DNA from: Sphingomonadales bacterium
GTDB taxonomy: Bacteria > Pseudomonadota > Alphaproteobacteria > Sphingomonadales > Kordiimonadaceae
Direction: 5' to 3'
Assembly: GCA_011088215.1 (NCBI GenBank)
Contig: JAALKD010000006.1
Span: 29,391-93,390 of the forward strand
DNA length: 64,000 nucleotides
Numbering within the stretch: the first letter of the stretch is position 1; each line of letters opens with the position of its first letter. Made by a program: the position numbers and the translations under genes. The notes beneath the pieces were generated by a model, which worked only from the letters and a program-made list of their open reading frames with translations, searched no databases and was not told where the DNA came from. This document shows, piece after piece, positions 4,356 through 47,558 of this stretch.

Positions 4356-4775
4356 ATGCGTAAATTCTCTAAGGGAGAGGACGAAGCAGAAGTCAATATG
4401 ACGCCGATGCTCGACATCGTGTTCATCATGCTGATTTTCTTTATCGTGACAGCCTCTTTCGTCAAAGAATCCGGTCTTGAGGTCAACAAGCCGGAGGATG
4501 ACAATACTCAAAATGATCCACCGCCACCGGACGATGAAAAGCGGGCTATCGCTTTTATTATCGATGAGAATAACCGGATTACACATGACTTTGTTCGTGT
4601 GGATATCTCGTCAGTTTCATCGATCATCAAGAAGGAAAGCGTGGAACGTCCAAAAGCACCTGTTGTTATTCAGGCTGCGGATGGGTCTCATCTCGGGTTG
4701 TCTGTCCGCATCTATGATGCCGCCAGAGACGTTGGGGTCAGTGACAGTCAAATTGTACTGACACCGAAAAAATAA
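4356..4775 (+). CDS. exbD: Biopolymer transporter ExbD (copy 1)
   Basis: NMTPMLDIVFIMLIFFIVTASF transmembrane motif with conserved Asp. Confidence 0.9.
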   Translation: MRKFSKGEDEAEVNMTPMLDIVFIMLIFFIVTASFVKESGLEVNKPEDDNTQNDPPPPDDEKRAIAFIIDENNRITHDFVRVDISSVSSIIKKESVERPKAPVVIQAADGSHLGLSVRIYDAARDVGVSDSQIVLTPKK

Positions 4776-4779
4776 TACC

Positions 4780-4800
4780 CGGCGGGGCAGTGCCCCGCCG
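4780..4800 (+). promoter_or_regulatory. Strong GC-rich intra-operon hairpin between two exbD genes
   Basis: CGGCGGGGCA-G-TGCCCCGCCG, perfect 10-nt arms, no following U-run. Confidence 0.6.
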
Positions 4801-4883
4801 TTCAGGCTAATGCCCGCATGGGTGTTGGACAGGGTTTTGAGGGGCTAGGCACCTGTATAGTGGCAGGTGAAGTGGAGAATAGA

Positions 4884-5282
4884 ATGCGTAATCATTCGCA
4901 ACAGGACGAAGATACAGAGATAAACATGACGCCGATGCTGGACATCGTGTTCATCATGTTGATCTTTTTCATCGTGACCGCGGTTTTTGTAAAAGAGGCT
5001 GGCGTTAATGTACTTAAACCGTCTGCCGAAACTGCCTTGCTGCAAAAACAAGTCAGTATTTTGATTGCGGTTACGTCCGATGATGTAATTTTCATCAATC
5101 GTGAACCAACTAAGATTGAGGCACTAAGAACTGCGGTTGAAAAGCTGCACGCTGAGAACCCTAAGGGATCAGTTGCCATTCAGGGCGACGAAGAAGCAAA
5201 CGCGGTTCTAGTTATGCAAGTTTATGATGCTATTCGCGACGCTGGTGTCGAGGTAATAGCAATAGCTACGGAGACGAACTAA
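4884..5282 (+). CDS. exbD: Biopolymer transporter ExbD (copy 2)
   Basis: INMTPMLDIVFIMLIFFIVTAVF; start at MRNHSQQ preceded by GGAG. Confidence 0.88.
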   Translation: MRNHSQQDEDTEINMTPMLDIVFIMLIFFIVTAVFVKEAGVNVLKPSAETALLQKQVSILIAVTSDDVIFINREPTKIEALRTAVEKLHAENPKGSVAIQGDEEANAVLVMQVYDAIRDAGVEVIAIATETN

Positions 5283-5902
5283 TGATTGCTCGGGTCGCCA
5301 CATCATTGGCCGCTGCATCGGGTGTAACCTTTGGCCTGTTTCTCGTGATGAACTATCTGGTCGCGGGTGACGGCGAAGTGAACCTTGATGAAAGTGATAG
5401 GGCCAGATTTATTGATGTCGTTCAGGATATTGATGATCAGCCGCCAGAACGCATGGAACGCGAAGTGGAAAAGCCACCGGAAGTGGAAGCCCCACCGCCG
5501 GAAATCGATACGCCGCAATTAGATGTTCAAGGTCCTGACAAGCTTAACTTGTCCATTGGCCGTGCGAACTCTGGTGCTAACATCGACCTGGGTCAGATCA
5601 ATCTGGGTGCGTCAACAGATGGTGATTATCTGCCGCTTGTTCGGGTGCAGCCGCAATATCCTCGCCGGGCACAAGAGCGCGGCATCGAGGGCTATGCTAT
5701 TGTTGAGCTGACAGTTGCTGCCGACGGCACTGTTCCAACCGAATCGATTATAGTGATTGAAGCAGAGCCAAAAGGCTATTTTGAGCGGGCAGCGATTAAA
5801 GCAGCTCAGAAGTTCAAATATAAGCCGAAGATCATTAACGGTGAAGGCCAGGCAGTGACCGGCGTTCGCTATCGGTTCAGCTTTAATTTGGCAGAGAAGT
5901 AG
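5282..5902 (+). CDS. tonB: Energy transducer TonB (copy 1)
   Basis: N-terminal TM, Pro/Glu-rich linker, C-terminal TonB domain YPRRAQERGIEGYAIVELTV...YKPKIINGEGQAVTGVRYRFSF. Confidence 0.9.
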   Translation: MIARVATSLAAASGVTFGLFLVMNYLVAGDGEVNLDESDRARFIDVVQDIDDQPPERMEREVEKPPEVEAPPPEIDTPQLDVQGPDKLNLSIGRANSGANIDLGQINLGASTDGDYLPLVRVQPQYPRRAQERGIEGYAIVELTVAADGTVPTESIIVIEAEPKGYFERAAIKAAQKFKYKPKIINGEGQAVTGVRYRFSFNLAEK

Positions 5903-5917
5903 AGACAAACGAAAGAG

Positions 5918-7327
5918 ATGATCATGGTACAGTATTTTAAATCCATTCCCATGGCTTTGGCGGCAGCAGCTGTATTGGCTGTGATGCCGGTTCCCGAGGG
6001 AACGCAGCTTTCTGCGACAGCAACCGCGCAGGAAGCGCCGAAGAAGAAGCAGAAAACGCGTAAAGTTGAATCAATTCCTCATTCCTTTCAGAAAAAACTC
6101 GAGAAGATACAGCTGACTCTGTCGCCGGAAGAAATGACCGAAGCGGATTTGGAAGCAACCAAAAGTGAACGTTTGGCTAGAGCTGAAGAATTGATGACCG
6201 ATGCCTTAGGCAGTCGTGGTTTGAATGATTACGCGCGCTCAATCGTTTGGCAATACCGTGCTCAGGTAGCCTTCGAGAAGGAAGACACGATGGGGGCTAT
6301 CAACGCCTTTGAGCGGGTGCTTGACTTTAAGGACAGTATTCCTGTTGCGCAAGAACATGGCATTATGTTCAACTTATCTCAGCTTTACTATCAGGTAGAG
6401 CAGCTAGATAAAGCGATTGATTACGTCACTCGATGGGAAAAAGCTGTGTCTGAAGTTGACCCGGCGCTTATCGGTATAACCCAGAAGGTCTTTATTTCGC
6501 AGCTCTATTATACCAATGAGGATTTTCCAAATTCCCTGAAGTATATTGATGTTGCCATTTCTGATGCCCAGCTGGTCGATACTGCCGAGGTTAAGGAAAA
6601 TTGGTATGGTCTGAAGCTTTCCGCACATTATGAGTTGGGCGATTTTCCGGCAGTTCGCGATACGCTTGTTACGCTTATCCTGAATTGGCCAACACCGCGC
6701 TATTGGCTCCAGCTCGCCAGTGTGTACCAGGAATTGGACGACGAAGAGACATTTTTCTCTTTGATGGAAGCGGCCTACAAGCAGGGCTTCTTGGATGATA
6801 GAGACGCCCAGATCATTAATGTCGCCCAAATTCAAATGAGTCGTGACGCACCGATCAAGTGTGCATGGATTGTTGATCGCGCACTGAAAGAAAACCTGGT
6901 TGAAGATGATGCAGATAGCCAGAGGCTATTGGGTCAGTGTTATCTTGCTGCCTCAGAATTCCGCAAGGCGCTTGATCCGCTTTCAAAAGCAGCGGCAGAG
7001 AATAGTGATGGTGACCTTTGGCTTCAGATTGGTCAGGTGCAAATGCAGATTGACCGATACGACGATGCGGAAAAGTCTTTCGCCAAGATGGCAACTGCAT
7101 TTGAAGACGACACCGAAAATGCCAAGAAAAATGCTAGCAAGCTTTTAGCCGGTGTCATGATGCGCGGCCAAGCCTTGACAGAATTGAAACGGTTTAAGGA
7201 CGCGAAAGACGCTTTCAGAAAAGCTTCCAGGCTTGCGAAAACCGAAAAGGATCGCCGTCAGGTCGCCAGTTGGCGTAAATATATGAACGGTGAGGAAGCC
7301 CGCGAGAAGTTGCTTACTGGTAGGTAA
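5918..7327 (+). CDS. Tetratricopeptide-repeat periplasmic protein
   Basis: Signal peptide, multiple TPR-like helical repeats; last gene of TonB operon. Confidence 0.8.
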   Translation: MIMVQYFKSIPMALAAAAVLAVMPVPEGTQLSATATAQEAPKKKQKTRKVESIPHSFQKKLEKIQLTLSPEEMTEADLEATKSERLARAEELMTDALGSRGLNDYARSIVWQYRAQVAFEKEDTMGAINAFERVLDFKDSIPVAQEHGIMFNLSQLYYQVEQLDKAIDYVTRWEKAVSEVDPALIGITQKVFISQLYYTNEDFPNSLKYIDVAISDAQLVDTAEVKENWYGLKLSAHYELGDFPAVRDTLVTLILNWPTPRYWLQLASVYQELDDEETFFSLMEAAYKQGFLDDRDAQIINVAQIQMSRDAPIKCAWIVDRALKENLVEDDADSQRLLGQCYLAASEFRKALDPLSKAAAENSDGDLWLQIGQVQMQIDRYDDAEKSFAKMATAFEDDTENAKKNASKLLAGVMMRGQALTELKRFKDAKDAFRKASRLAKTEKDRRQVASWRKYMNGEEAREKLLTGR

Positions 7328-7360
7328 GCCTACACCTAGTAACCGGGTATAAATATTCTG

Positions 7361-7392
7361 ACGGTGTCACTATAGCGGTGGCACCGTTTTTC
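7361..7392 (+). terminator. Rho-independent terminator after TPR gene
   Basis: ACGGTGTCAC-N6-GTGGCACCGT followed by TTTTT. Confidence 0.7.
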
Positions 7393-7491
7393 TATTGAGG
7401 CCGCTTCATTGGTGCGGTTTTTATATGCGGTGCCCCCCCCAAGAGACAGGGAATAGCTTGAAACTTTGCGCTGTGGTTTTATTGTTGGCGC

Positions 7492-7797
7492 ATGATGTGG
7501 TTTGTTTTTCTTTCTGTAGCCATTGCGTTGGGCGTTCTTGTAATGATGCACGACGAAATCAGCACGGGCTTTTATCGTTGGACTGATTATATCGTCACGT
7601 CACCGCTGCTGTTTGTTACCGGCGCCATTTTATATTATCTCGCTGGACTTGTTCCGTTACCGCTCAACCTATGGCTGGGCCTGCTTCTACCGCTCAAGAC
7701 GGTATTGGTCTTTGGGGTTATGGTAATGACGTGGGGCGGCACGCTCACGTTTGGTAGTCTTCTCATTCGTTTGGTCGGCCACAAAAAACAGCCCTAA
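7492..7797 (+). CDS. Hypothetical membrane protein
   Basis: 101-aa ORF with several hydrophobic segments. Confidence 0.55.
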   Translation: MMWFVFLSVAIALGVLVMMHDEISTGFYRWTDYIVTSPLLFVTGAILYYLAGLVPLPLNLWLGLLLPLKTVLVFGVMVMTWGGTLTFGSLLIRLVGHKKQP

Positions 7798-7849
7798 CCT
7801 TCTCCTTCTCGCCCAACCCTCTCGATTTGTCTTTAAAGTACGATATAGA

Positions 7850-7904
7850 TGTTACTATATAACTTTACATATAACTAAAGTTTCAATATAGTTATATAGT
7901 AACA
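7850..7904. promoter_or_regulatory. Inverted repeat (15-bp perfect arms) immediately upstream of tonB copy 2
   Basis: TGTTACTATATAACT (7850-7864) and AGTTATATAGTAACA (7890-7904), 25-nt spacer. Confidence 0.65.
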
Positions 7905-7916
7905 AAATGGAGAGGA

Positions 7917-8537
7917 ATGATGAAACCAATAAGATTATATGCAGCAGGACCGTTGGCGGCTGTTTGTACCAGCGGTTTGTTTCTGGTCATGCAAGGACTG
8001 GTCGGCGGCGAGGGAGAGGTGCAAATTGAACCTGATAAGCAAAGATTGATTCCGGTAATACAGGACGTTGATTTCAAGCCACCCGAGCGCATGATACGGA
8101 CTGTCGAAAAGCCTCCTGAGCCGGAGCCCCAGCCGCCTATGGTTAAAGAGCCACCGGTTAATACGGGAGAGCCGGGAAAGATGAATATTTCTATTCCAGG
8201 CGTTAAAACAGGACCTGGAGCCAACCTGATTACCATTAACCTGGGCTCAAATTCTGATGGCGATTATTTGCCTTTGGTACGGGTGCAGCCTCAGTATCCG
8301 CGCCGTGCGCAGGAACGCGGGATAGAGGGCTTTGCTGTTGTTGAACTAACCGTCAACCCGGATGGGTCAGTACCCGCAGAGTCGGTTGTCGTTGTGGAGG
8401 CTGAACCCGCTGGATACTTCGAAGCTAATTCCATTAAGGCCGCGCAAAAGTTCAAATACAAGCCCAAGGTGGTGAACGGCCAGGGTCAGACCGTAACCGG
8501 CGTGCGTTACAAATTCAGTTTCAATATGGCGAAGTAA
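7917..8537 (+). CDS. tonB: Energy transducer TonB (copy 2)
   Basis: Closely similar C-terminal domain to copy 1: GDYLPLVRVQPQYPRRAQERGIEGFAVVELTV...FKYKPKVVNGQGQTVTGVRYKFSF. Confidence 0.9.
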   Translation: MMKPIRLYAAGPLAAVCTSGLFLVMQGLVGGEGEVQIEPDKQRLIPVIQDVDFKPPERMIRTVEKPPEPEPQPPMVKEPPVNTGEPGKMNISIPGVKTGPGANLITINLGSNSDGDYLPLVRVQPQYPRRAQERGIEGFAVVELTVNPDGSVPAESVVVVEAEPAGYFEANSIKAAQKFKYKPKVVNGQGQTVTGVRYKFSFNMAK

Positions 8538-8538
8538 A

Positions 8539-8937
8539 ATGCGCTGCACGGGCCGAAAACTGCAATCAGGCGCAGTACCAAACATGACGCCGATGCTGGA
8601 CATCGTGTTTATCCTGATAATATTCTTTGTAGTGACGGCCAGTTTTATCCAGGAACGCGGCCTGGAGGTTAACAGGCCGCAAGGTATACCGCCGCCACCC
8701 TTGACGCCGCAGGAAGGCTTGCTCTTACATTTGGCACCCGGCCATCGCATTTTGTTCCGTGGCTACGCTATCGACGTATCCGCAGCCACGGCGCTGATGA
8801 AAAAGTTTCACGTGGAGCATCAGGACCAGGTAATTTTGGTGAAACTGCAGTCTGGCGCAAAGCTCGGGCAGTTGGTCGATTTACTTGATCATGGGCGCAT
8901 GGCGGGATTACCGGTTGGCAGCATCGCCGTTCAATAA
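8539..8937 (+). CDS. exbD: Biopolymer transporter ExbD (copy 3)
   Basis: NMTPMLDIVFILIIFFVVTASFIQERGLEVNRP. Confidence 0.87.
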   Translation: MRCTGRKLQSGAVPNMTPMLDIVFILIIFFVVTASFIQERGLEVNRPQGIPPPPLTPQEGLLLHLAPGHRILFRGYAIDVSAATALMKKFHVEHQDQVILVKLQSGAKLGQLVDLLDHGRMAGLPVGSIAVQ

Positions 8938-42919: not shown

Positions 42920-43549
42920 TTAACCGCGGATCAAGTCCCAGAAACGACGTTCCTGCGCTTCTTCCTTGAACACGCCGCGGAACTGGCGGGTGATGGTGTA
43001 AACACCGTCATGCTTCACACCCCTGCAGGTCATGCACTGGTGTGTAGCGTCAACTACAACCGCAACTCCTTTTGGGTCCAGATGTTCGTCGATGGCGTCG
43101 GCGATCTGTGCGGTCATGGTTTCCTGGGTTTGTAGGCGATTGGCAAAGGCCTCAACCACACGTGCAAGTTTGGAAATACCGACAACGCTGCCATTTGGCA
43201 TATAGGCGACATGTGCGGTTCCCTGCACGGGTACCATATGGTGCTCGCAGTGGCTTTCTACCTTGATGCCGCGTAGCACAACCATATCGTCGTAGCCGGC
43301 GACTTCACCAAAAGTGCGCGACAAAATCTCGCCTACGTCTTTGCTATAGCCGTTAAAAAACTCTTCGTAAGCTTTGACAACACGCTTTGGCGTGTCCAAG
43401 AGGCCTTCTCTGGTGGGGTCATCGCCTGCCCATCTAATCAGGGTGCGAACCGCGGCTTCTGCTTCTGCCCGGGTGGGGCTTTCGGCGGCGTCCTGCGGGA
43501 TTACCTTCAGTTCAGGGCAACCTTCTGCCCTTTCAAGTACGGCATCCAT
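42920..43549 (-). CDS. folE: GTP cyclohydrolase I
   Basis: [49 protein letters not shown]. Confidence 0.96.
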
Positions 43550-43822
43550 TCGGATTTCCTTTCTAAATATAATCTTATATCGGTGTCTTCAGTATAGGTG
43601 CGTCAATATATAGATGGCTGTAGCGGCCATTTAGTTCCCGAAATTTTATTTCAGCCATCGTCCATGCATAGCATACAACGGAAACAGATGTTGATATGGC
43701 AAGATTAAGGGATTATTCAAGCAAACTTCAAGTTTTGCCGGTTTAACTCTTAGGTGATGCCACCAAGCGTATTACGTGGCAGCATTGGGCCCGGATCAAA
43801 TAAAGGCTGAAAAGAAAGCGGT

Positions 43823-43981
43823 ATGAGTGAGCTATGTAACACCGAAATTCTGCGGCTAACCCCCTGTATCCCGCACTAGGCAAAGCTTGAATCGCCAGAG
43901 GTTACCGCGGTGAAAACCAGCCGGGTGTGCGGCAGCCAATTGACCGCGGACGCTGTTATTCAAAAAGGCGTGATCAACTAA
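43823..43981 (+). pseudogene. Truncated 5' remnant of a nifU-like gene
   Basis: MSELCNTEILRLTPCIPH*AKLESPEVTAVKTSRVCGSQLTADAVIQKGVIN*, aligning gap-free with the first ~52 codons of the intact gene at 46243; internal TAG, then truncation. Confidence 0.85.
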
Positions 43982-43990
43982 TTAACCCGC

Positions 43991-46072
43991 TCAAGAGCAT
44001 GTGAGTTCCCCCGATGTTTCGTCAATTCCTACCGCCTGGCCGGTCGGACAGGCGGCATAACCATTGGGGCTAGGGTCTTCGCTGAGGAAACCGGATGTGT
44101 CAATGCTTGAGCCGGGAAACAAATCGAATTCGCTCTCGTTTGGCGCGCCTTGCCAGAAGTTTCCTCGCGCGGAAATGTTGACGGGATGATTGCTAGTGAT
44201 ATCCATACCATTGAAGAAGATTCGGTTTCCAGCACTGGAGCCTAAGCTGCCGCCGCCCAAGTCAATCACTCTCGCGCCGGTGCCGGGCGGCTGAATTGTT
44301 AGCGGGAAGTTGGTGAAGTTGAATGCAGTGCCGTTACCGACAACAGTGTTGCCGCTTGCACTGAAAAACAAGTCGGCGGCATTTATCACGTCAGTAGTAA
44401 CGGCGGCCCTTCCGTGATTGATGAATTGATTGCCGATCAGGTTAATGGTTGTATCTGTCCGAGATGCAACTGTAACGCTGGAACTCCCATCGCTCCCCAG
44501 AATATTGTTATTTGTCAAATTGATCTCAATCGGGACGTTTTCGGATTGTGCGAATATGGTGACGCCCGAACCCTGACCAGTGTATGTCGAGTTTGACACG
44601 TTGATTATGGTTGCGATGCCCGGTGTAACCACTTCCCCGAACACACCAACGCTTATTCCTACCCCTGATTGATTATCGTTTGAAGTTTCGTCAAAAAAGA
44701 CCCCAACAGTTTCAATAATCACATCGTCAATGTTAACATATTCAGACGGTTCAAGACTCACCCTGATGCCAGGGCTTCCTTCGCCGCGCAAATGTAATCC
44801 AGAGATGAAGTTGTTCCCTTCAGCAAAAACGACACCTTCGGGAACCGTTGGACCCTCGAAATCGGTAACTCGCAACATGGGTCGATCGCCCGGGGCGATC
44901 AGGAATGTGCCGAGTGCTTCTAGGCCAGAGGCCTCGCCGATTAGGCTTTGACCTTGAAGCAGCGGATGGACGCCGAAGTACTCATCATTTCCGGCGTATA
45001 AGAAGATGACATCACCTTCTTCAGTTGGATTGAAGGCAGTGCCATCTGATGTTCGGAACCCGTTGTAGCGGTTTTCAAATGTCCCGTCGCCGCCTTCCGG
45101 CGCGGAATTGTCGATGAAACGGTATACAGTGTCGGAAACCTGTTCTTGTGTGACAGTCACCTGTTGGCTGATGCGGGCCGTATCTGCAACGCTTGTAATC
45201 ACATCGGCGCTGCGCCTCACCCATTCTGTCATTCGCTTGTTCAGGCCATGCCGGGTACTAGTTGTTTTGCTTTTGCCGAATGGTATGCTTAGGCGAATAC
45301 CACCGGAGAAGAGACTTCCGCGCGTGTCATCGTCTGAGAATTCGCCCGTCAGTGTAATGTTTGCGCCTTTCAGGGCCGAAATGTCGTCGGCGACATTCCA
45401 TTCAAGTCTTCCTTTTGGCCCTTTCAAACCAACTTGATTATCGTTGAAATTAAAATATCCGGCAAAGGCCCGAATACCGGAGAAAATCTCGTAGCCAACT
45501 TCTGCATCCCAGCCATCGTTGGCACGCTCAGAGGTCTGCGTGGTAAGGACCGTGTCGACTTGGGTCACATTTGCAAACAAGGAGTTGCCGGACAGGAATA
45601 GGTCACTGCCTTCGAAACTCGTGGTTTGTCCCACAGTGGTATCAATTGACGAAAGTCTACGGGTTTCATCAAAGGCCGAATAATAGTTGAAGCGCAGGTC
45701 CCACTTTTCGCTCATTAATTCAGCACCAAAAGTAGCCTGGTCAAAATTACTGTCGTTCGCCGTACGACGATGGTCATAGAAGCCGTAAGCTCCGATAATG
45801 AAGCGATCGTTGACAATATGGCATATGCCAGCACCGATGCTGCCTTCGAGATTTTCGCGGCTATCAACAAGACCGCGAGCATCCAGAAACAGAAGTGTGT
45901 TTTTACTTTGGGCCAGCGGCACAATAAATTCGAGCTCGCCAAAGGTTTTGTCGCTGGAGACGTTTCCATTAGCATATGAATGGATGTCATATAGGTTGTC
46001 ATCAGCCTGTACGCCGTGAGAGGCAAGTACCGAAACACAAGCAACGATAGATAAACTTGATAACGCTCGCAT
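43991..46072 (-). CDS. Inverse-autotransporter-like outer membrane beta-barrel with right-handed beta-helix passenger
   Basis: Signal peptide; GSIGAGICHIVNDRFIIGAYGFYDHRRTANDSNFDQATFGAELMSEKWDLRFNYYSAF is intimin/invasin-type beta-domain-like; C-terminal region has repeated N/G-rich beta-helix-like strands. Confidence 0.78.
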   Translation of the reverse strand: MRALSSLSIVACVSVLASHGVQADDNLYDIHSYANGNVSSDKTFGELEFIVPLAQSKNTLLFLDARGLVDSRENLEGSIGAGICHIVNDRFIIGAYGFYDHRRTANDSNFDQATFGAELMSEKWDLRFNYYSAFDETRRLSSIDTTVGQTTSFEGSDLFLSGNSLFANVTQVDTVLTTQTSERANDGWDAEVGYEIFSGIRAFAGYFNFNDNQVGLKGPKGRLEWNVADDISALKGANITLTGEFSDDDTRGSLFSGGIRLSIPFGKSKTTSTRHGLNKRMTEWVRRSADVITSVADTARISQQVTVTQEQVSDTVYRFIDNSAPEGGDGTFENRYNGFRTSDGTAFNPTEEGDVIFLYAGNDEYFGVHPLLQGQSLIGEASGLEALGTFLIAPGDRPMLRVTDFEGPTVPEGVVFAEGNNFISGLHLRGEGSPGIRVSLEPSEYVNIDDVIIETVGVFFDETSNDNQSGVGISVGVFGEVVTPGIATIINVSNSTYTGQGSGVTIFAQSENVPIEINLTNNNILGSDGSSSVTVASRTDTTINLIGNQFINHGRAAVTTDVINAADLFFSASGNTVVGNGTAFNFTNFPLTIQPPGTGARVIDLGGGSLGSSAGNRIFFNGMDITSNHPVNISARGNFWQGAPNESEFDLFPGSSIDTSGFLSEDPSPNGYAACPTGQAVGIDETSGELTCS

Positions 46073-46242
46073 ATCGCAGATTCCCCAATCATGCATTTTT
46101 TGTGTAATCACAACATTTATTGAATAGCGTTGCTCAGTTAGTCAAGGACAATGCGCCCACCGATTGAGAAAATTGTTTTTACTTGGAAACCATATGGGAT
46201 TTGCTTAGATAAAGGCCTGATTGAAAGAGCAATTGATGACCG

Positions 46243-46683
46243 ATGAGTGAGCTATACAATACTGATATCCTGCGGCTAACCACCCGTATCCCGCATCAAA
46301 CAAGGCTTGAATCACCGGATGTTACGGCGGTGAAAACCAGCCGGGTGTGCGGCAGCCGATTGACTGCAGACGCCGTTATTCAAAAAGGCGCGATAACCGC
46401 GTTCGGGCAAGAGGTTAAGGCCTGCGCGCTGGGTCAGGCGGCAGCGGCTATTGTCGGCGAACATGTGGTTGGATTGACGGAAAATGAGCTTTCCGGCGTG
46501 GCTGACCAATTTCGGACCATGATTAAAACCGGCGAAACCAAGTTCCCTGAAAAATGGTCTAAGCTAGCGTTGTTGGCCCCGGTAAAGGACCACCCTGGCC
46601 GCCAGGGCAGCGTTATGTTGTCGTTCCAAGTGCTGGAGCAAATATTTGCCGATGCTCGTAAATCCAACGAATCAGCGGCCTGA
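46243..46683 (+). CDS. NifU/IscU-like iron-sulfur cluster assembly scaffold protein
   Basis: VKTSRVCGSRLTADAVIQKGAITAFGQEVKACALGQAAAAIVGEHV Cys pattern. Confidence 0.85.
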   Translation: MSELYNTDILRLTTRIPHQTRLESPDVTAVKTSRVCGSRLTADAVIQKGAITAFGQEVKACALGQAAAAIVGEHVVGLTENELSGVADQFRTMIKTGETKFPEKWSKLALLAPVKDHPGRQGSVMLSFQVLEQIFADARKSNESAA

Positions 46684-47558
46684 TGCGTGCGACAGACGCA
46701 GAAAAGGCGCTTGCAGCTGACATTTGGCAGCACTTTCACGATCAAAACTATGAACAGGCCCAAGCTTTGCTCGCGCACGCGCTTGAGACCAGCGAGCACC
46801 CTCGATTCAAGCGTATCCAGGCACGCTTTTACCTGTTTGAAGGCCGTGAGGGTGACGCAGCGACCATCATCAAAGAGATTTTGCCCAAGGTCTGGACACC
46901 GGGCTCATGGGAACTGGCGCTGGTAAGGAGCGGCGCGTGCCGGGCCAAAGTATTGAAAAAACAGAAAGTTTTATATTTTCCGTTGCGAAAGTGTGGTTCG
47001 ACCAGCCTTTTGAATATGATGAAAATACTCACCGGCGAGGATGCGCGCGGTGAGCATGTTCACCAAGAAGACGACACAAGAAAGCCAGTTAATTTGGCTA
47101 CTATGGGTGCGGATTATCCCGGATATTTTTCATGCACTGCAGTGCGCGATCCAATTGATAGGCTGTTGTCCTATTTCCACGGTAATATAGTTGGCAGGGA
47201 CCACCTGATGGTGGAATATGGTGGCAAGACAGAATTTTACGGTCTGCCAACCAAACCTGGCCTGGACTATTTTCTGGTAAATTTTGTGCGTTATAGGCAG
47301 GTTTTTATCTCTGTTCGCGATCATACCGAGCCACTGGTCTCGTCTATCGGCGCAAACCCTGCAGTTTTTAATTGGATTGGTGGTTTGGGCCAGTTGTCTG
47401 ATCTTGCCGCTAAGCTGTCTGCGCACGCAGGCATTGAATTACCCTTGTTGCAGGACATGGTGTCTGCAGAAAAACCCGGTAAGGTGGCCCACGATATGCC
47501 GATCGCAGTTCAGGCGTTATATGCCGAGGACTATGAAGCTTACGGTGTGTTTTTCTAG
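46683..47558 (+). CDS. Sulfotransferase family protein
   Basis: KVLYFPLRKCGSTSLLNMM (5' phosphosulfate-binding-like loop), CTAVRDPIDRLLSYFHGNI; start overlaps nifU-like stop (TGATG). Confidence 0.82.
   Translation: MRATDAEKALAADIWQHFHDQNYEQAQALLAHALETSEHPRFKRIQARFYLFEGREGDAATIIKEILPKVWTPGSWELALVRSGACRAKVLKKQKVLYFPLRKCGSTSLLNMMKILTGEDARGEHVHQEDDTRKPVNLATMGADYPGYFSCTAVRDPIDRLLSYFHGNIVGRDHLMVEYGGKTEFYGLPTKPGLDYFLVNFVRYRQVFISVRDHTEPLVSSIGANPAVFNWIGGLGQLSDLAAKLSAHAGIELPLLQDMVSAEKPGKVAHDMPIAVQALYAEDYEAYGVFF

Follow-up and report, generated by a model that had tools for sequence, protein, structure and literature searches.

The stretch of DNA analysed here (hereafter the window) is 64,000 nucleotides long and belongs to a Kordiimonas-type genome, the only one representing its species; named records matching it include Kordiimonas marina and K. 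laminariae. It contains folE, encoding GTP cyclohydrolase I (42920-43549, minus strand; PF01227, E 1.7e-70). This is followed by an intergenic region of 273 nt (43550-43822), a truncated copy of the start of a nifU-like gene (43823-43978, plus strand), a gene for an inverse autotransporter (IAT) of 693 aa (43991-46072, minus strand), a gap of 170 nt (46073-46242), a complete nifU-like gene of 146 aa (46243-46683, plus strand) and a sulfotransferase-like gene (46683-47558, plus strand; PF03567, E 5.8e-10). The intact nifU-like gene encodes a putative SufU/IscU-type Fe-S scaffold. Its product matches 5uft (E 3.6e-20) and, at 50.7 bits and thus under the cut-off of 92.5, TIGR01994 (E 1.8e-13); judged by its sequence it is NifU-like in the wide sense and a relative of 5uft.

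Of the resident nifU-like gene, the truncated copy comprises codons 1-52. An earlier note, made by eye from the letters of the window, had reported that the start of this gene is present twice, with about 24 mismatches in 156 nt. Alignment of 43823-43978 with 46243-46398 gives exactly 24 (132/156 identical, same orientation), against a maximum of 57/156 in first-order Markov shuffles, and a gap-free match at 86% identity covers 43823-43974 and 46243-46394. The in-frame TAG and premature end described in the note were also seen. The TAG lies at codon 19 (43877-43879) and a TAA at codon 53 (43979-43981), and 12 nt separate the last duplicated codon from the stop codon of the IAT gene (43991-43993, minus strand). 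The similarity was also thought to continue upstream of the start (ATAAAGGC...), which did not survive testing (p = 0.47 for local alignment and 0.2-0.8 for alignments fixed at the start codon); the repeat ends at the start codon. A possible further piece of the remnant was considered at 44034-44057 (plus strand, antisense under the C-terminal tail of the IAT), where 19 of 24 nt resemble nifU codons 60-67. Compared with real windows of the 64-kb sequence this piece has a p of about 0.02 under the stricter schemes, but a p of 0.15-0.31 once long gaps are allowed, and we make no claim that the remnant continues under the 3′ end of the IAT gene.

Nineteen congeners were searched for the ancestral arrangement. 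In all 17 in which both folE and a nifU-like gene occur on the same contig, folE (76-94% identity) lies next to a single, divergently oriented nifU. Several further genera of the family share this order. The spacing between the two genes is 223-330 nt in the genomes measured and 273 nt between folE and the remnant here, whilst the intact nifU sits 2.4 kb beyond the ancestral place, behind the IAT. The nearest congener (locus L031, genome G015) shares 94% identity in folE, 92% in the hydrolase and 68% in the sulfotransferase. The region upstream of the remnant aligns to its counterpart in L031 with a local alignment score of 108, where the null maximum is 28. Given the ancestral spacing to folE and this L031-like upstream region, the remnant represents the start of the resident nifU in its original place, preceded by the ancestral divergent promoter region. 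Two nifU matches were found in the present genome only; no other searched genome gave a second match, and no relative showed the order folE-remnant-nifU free of an IAT.

The 170 nt preceding the intact nifU are of a different kind. They are single copy in the genome, matched neither the ancestral leader nor the upstream regions of other congeners, and presumably arrived with the IAT; homology to the ancestral leader was tried as a candidate and the alignment was not significant. A promoter scan of this new upstream region returned no more hits than it did in shuffles. Directly before the intact start, 46236-46250 reads ATGACCGATGAGTGA, a four-codon frame that overlaps the start and is similar to the MTEL-type start (ATGACCGAG) found in several congeners. 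On the far side of nifU, the sulfotransferase-like gene had been suggested to be part of the incoming DNA. Its nearest relative, however, occupies the same place in L031, the same source as for folE and the hydrolase, which marks it as a resident. A sulfotransferase is found behind nifU in about half of the congeners and is fast-evolving (35-68% identity) between conserved neighbours. The genes folE, nifU, sulfotransferase and hydrolase have all been kept beside the insert.

The IAT is the only gene of the insert. It is complete, with a signal peptide, a 12-strand barrel and a C-terminal passenger, and carries the N-terminal barrel domain of type Ve autotransporters (PF11924, E 2.2e-13, 50.9 bits against a cut-off of 22.3). 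A Foldseek search with the structure model returned the intimin/invasin barrels 4e1s (E 1.7e-10) and 4e1t as best matches. With a mean pLDDT of 59 the model is good for the barrel only, and the fold of the passenger therefore rests on profile matches, which are to right-handed beta-helix proteins (NosD, alginate epimerases). The Pfam Beta_helix model matches 8 of 13 aligned IAT relatives; the IAT of the present genome does not pass it. The protein shares with intimin and invasin an N-terminal 12-strand barrel of similar fold and a C-terminal passenger, but differs in that its passenger is predicted to be a right-handed beta-helix, whereas type Ve passengers are typically, though not by requirement, Ig-like or lectin-like (PMC6555100). 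Proteins with an intimin-type barrel and a beta-helix-like passenger are scattered among the Alphaproteobacteria, in 25 of 384 other genomes of the class (loci L059-L077 and L129), and by this difference in passengers the alphaproteobacterial group may form a distinct subclass, which we offer as a lead only.

That the IAT came from outside agrees with its distribution. As the earlier note had supposed, the gene is foreign here: in a profile search its domain was detected in the present genome and in none of the other 29 genomes of the family, and no congener has an IAT at the folE-nifU locus or anywhere else. Relatives from the class and order searches are 24-38% identical, the nearest (35%) coming from another family of the order. 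Neither a scan of genome contigs nor a plasmid search returned a relative. The GC content of the gene (50.3; GC3 52.3) lies inside the range of the neighbouring genes. Its last 20-odd residues (GYAACPTGQAVGIDETSGELTCS) are missing in the nearest relative. It is conceivable, albeit improbable, that the original stop of the IAT disappeared at the junction and that the tail GYAACPTGQAVGIDETSGELTCS is read from the antisense strand of a further nifU remnant; if so, overprinting of a captured gene fragment would have extended a surface protein by a new tail.

We then asked how the two copies are related. In a tree of the 156 nt the remnant and the intact copy are sisters (support 99/97) with L031 outside. 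A tree in which the intact copy is made to group with L031 is worse by 9.6 log units (AU p = 0.034), and one in which the remnant is made to do so by 10.1 (AU p = 0.020), although gene conversion between the copies could mimic or inflate this sister signal over so short a stretch. The remnant has the longer branch (0.157 vs 0.036). Between the copies dS is 0.40, compared with 0.99 between the intact gene and L031 over the same codons, which puts their divergence at roughly 40% of the dS distance to the nearest congener. Changes were then polarised on L031, an outgroup with a dS near 1, and next on L032. The remnant branch carries 10 nonsynonymous changes (one of them a stop) and 6 synonymous ones, and a neutral expectation is not rejected (P = 0.28). 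The intact branch carries 1 nonsynonymous and 7 synonymous changes and is far from neutral (P = 0.0008); the two patterns differ (Fisher p = 0.033). Judging from these substitutions, the remnant looks to be drifting neutrally and the intact copy to be under purifying selection. The divergence had been called mostly synonymous, which is true of the intact lineage but not of the remnant, and the argument built upon it, namely that the remnant is therefore no fresh duplication, fails once the changes are polarised. Moreover, the nonsynonymous drift by itself predicts almost all of the synonymous change in the remnant, so that little time remains for both copies to have been functional genes in separate lineages.

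Sisterhood of the copies, together with neutral change in one and purifying change in the other, points to a resident 5′ end that, through a duplication in this lineage, came to flank an incoming IAT on both sides. We hold with high confidence that an insertion-duplication took place in the lineage by some route free of a divergent nifU donor. More specifically, we infer a single such event in the present Kordiimonas lineage, with the IAT entering where the resident nifU-like gene begins, and give this a probability of about 0.72. Foreign DNA with the IAT gene would have joined the chromosome at the nifU start, leaving the first 156 nt doubled. The left copy would have retained the former promoter region but nothing beyond codon 52, becoming a pseudogene at once and drifting ever since. 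The right copy, complete from the original ATG, would have remained under purifying selection and would now be read from IAT-borne sequence. A nifU-like gene was found in 59 of 61 genomes of the order, and events breaking it were probably lost; selection may therefore have fixed a right-hand junction so near to the ATG.

The arrangement resembles the product of a Campbell-type single crossover, the principle of insertion duplication mutagenesis (PMC3936844). In both, inserted DNA lies between two copies of one gene piece (here the direct repeat of 132/156), the upstream copy is truncated and retains the native promoter, and the downstream copy is whole yet separated from that promoter. Both copies likewise stem from the same resident gene, as their sister relation indicates within the limits set by 156 nt and possible gene conversion. 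The present case differs in being natural and old, its copies having diverged by 15%, and in an insert devoid of plasmid backbone, integrase or transposase. By this route a circular molecule bearing the IAT gene and a promoterless 5′ piece of nifU would have integrated through one homologous crossover; no circular donor with a homologous piece was found in the plasmids or genomes searched. Alternatively, a copying fork could have jumped from nifU codon 52 to an IAT fragment and then back to the nifU start. Our confidence in any one specific route, be it Campbell integration, template switching or one-sided recombination with close kin, is low. A transposon or integrative element would be marked by a short target-site repeat, terminal inverted repeats or a recombinase; the repeat flanking this insert is 156 nt long, no terminal inverted repeats were reported, and the insert has no gene other than the IAT.

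The most serious competitor, which we nevertheless regard as unlikely, is homology-facilitated illegitimate (one-sided) recombination, the donor being a very close relative whose IAT already stood between nifU and its promoter. An illegitimate join at resident codon 52, paired with homologous exchange within nifU or beyond it, would yield the same product, and amounts to the replacement envisaged in the earlier note limited to close relatives. Some support comes from the intact side having slightly, though not significantly, more synonymous changes (7 vs 6) and from the IAT-side leader ATGACCGATGAG, which resembles the start ATGACCGAG of several congeners. As in that process, unrelated DNA was gained here beside a homologous stretch, one junction being free of homology. 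However, such recombination is usually accompanied by deletion of resident DNA similar in size to the insert (PMC3240628), and here that hallmark is absent, with all downstream genes kept. It also requires an unseen donor closer than any genome compared, and no congener has an IAT. A microhomology of 3-10 nt is a further criterion for the illegitimate junction, which in this case is too diverged for reading.

Far less probable is the original form of that proposal, in which a block of IAT, nifU and sulfotransferase from a divergent relative replaced the resident nifU start. The 15% difference between the copies and the foreignness of the IAT to the family would fit, and the remnant is indeed the resident start beside folE. 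Import of a divergent nifU, though, is at odds with the sister relation of the copies (99/97) and with the neutral remnant branch. Moreover, nifU from codon 53 on groups with L031 (SH-aLRT 97), the sulfotransferase has the same affinity as its neighbours, and the codon-position GC of the block resembles theirs. Equally remote is a tandem duplication of nifU that came first, followed by IAT insertion and loss of most of the left copy. The end state would be the same, and the level of divergence does not time the two steps separately, yet this needs more steps, its intermediate is seen in no relative, and a plain tandem copy usually carries some upstream sequence, whilst the similarity here stops at the start codon.

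The locus clearly illustrates an insertion scar of an ordinary type. In this well-resolved natural case, a lone foreign gene entered the chromosome next to a conserved housekeeping gene with no help from mobile-element machinery, and the cost was a doubled gene start and an altered upstream region. The case further shows that, where a by-eye comparison of a pseudogene with its source seems mostly synonymous, the changes need polarising before one argues for import from a relative. In a different family of the order (locus L055, genome G041), the space between folE and nifU has also received an insertion, a complete cysS-like (cysteinyl-tRNA synthetase) frame within 1.6 kb between the two genes. 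Lastly, elsewhere in the window, 4386-8679 holds three copies of a diverged direct repeat of about 100 nt (73-76% identical), which suggests repeated or paralogous genes.
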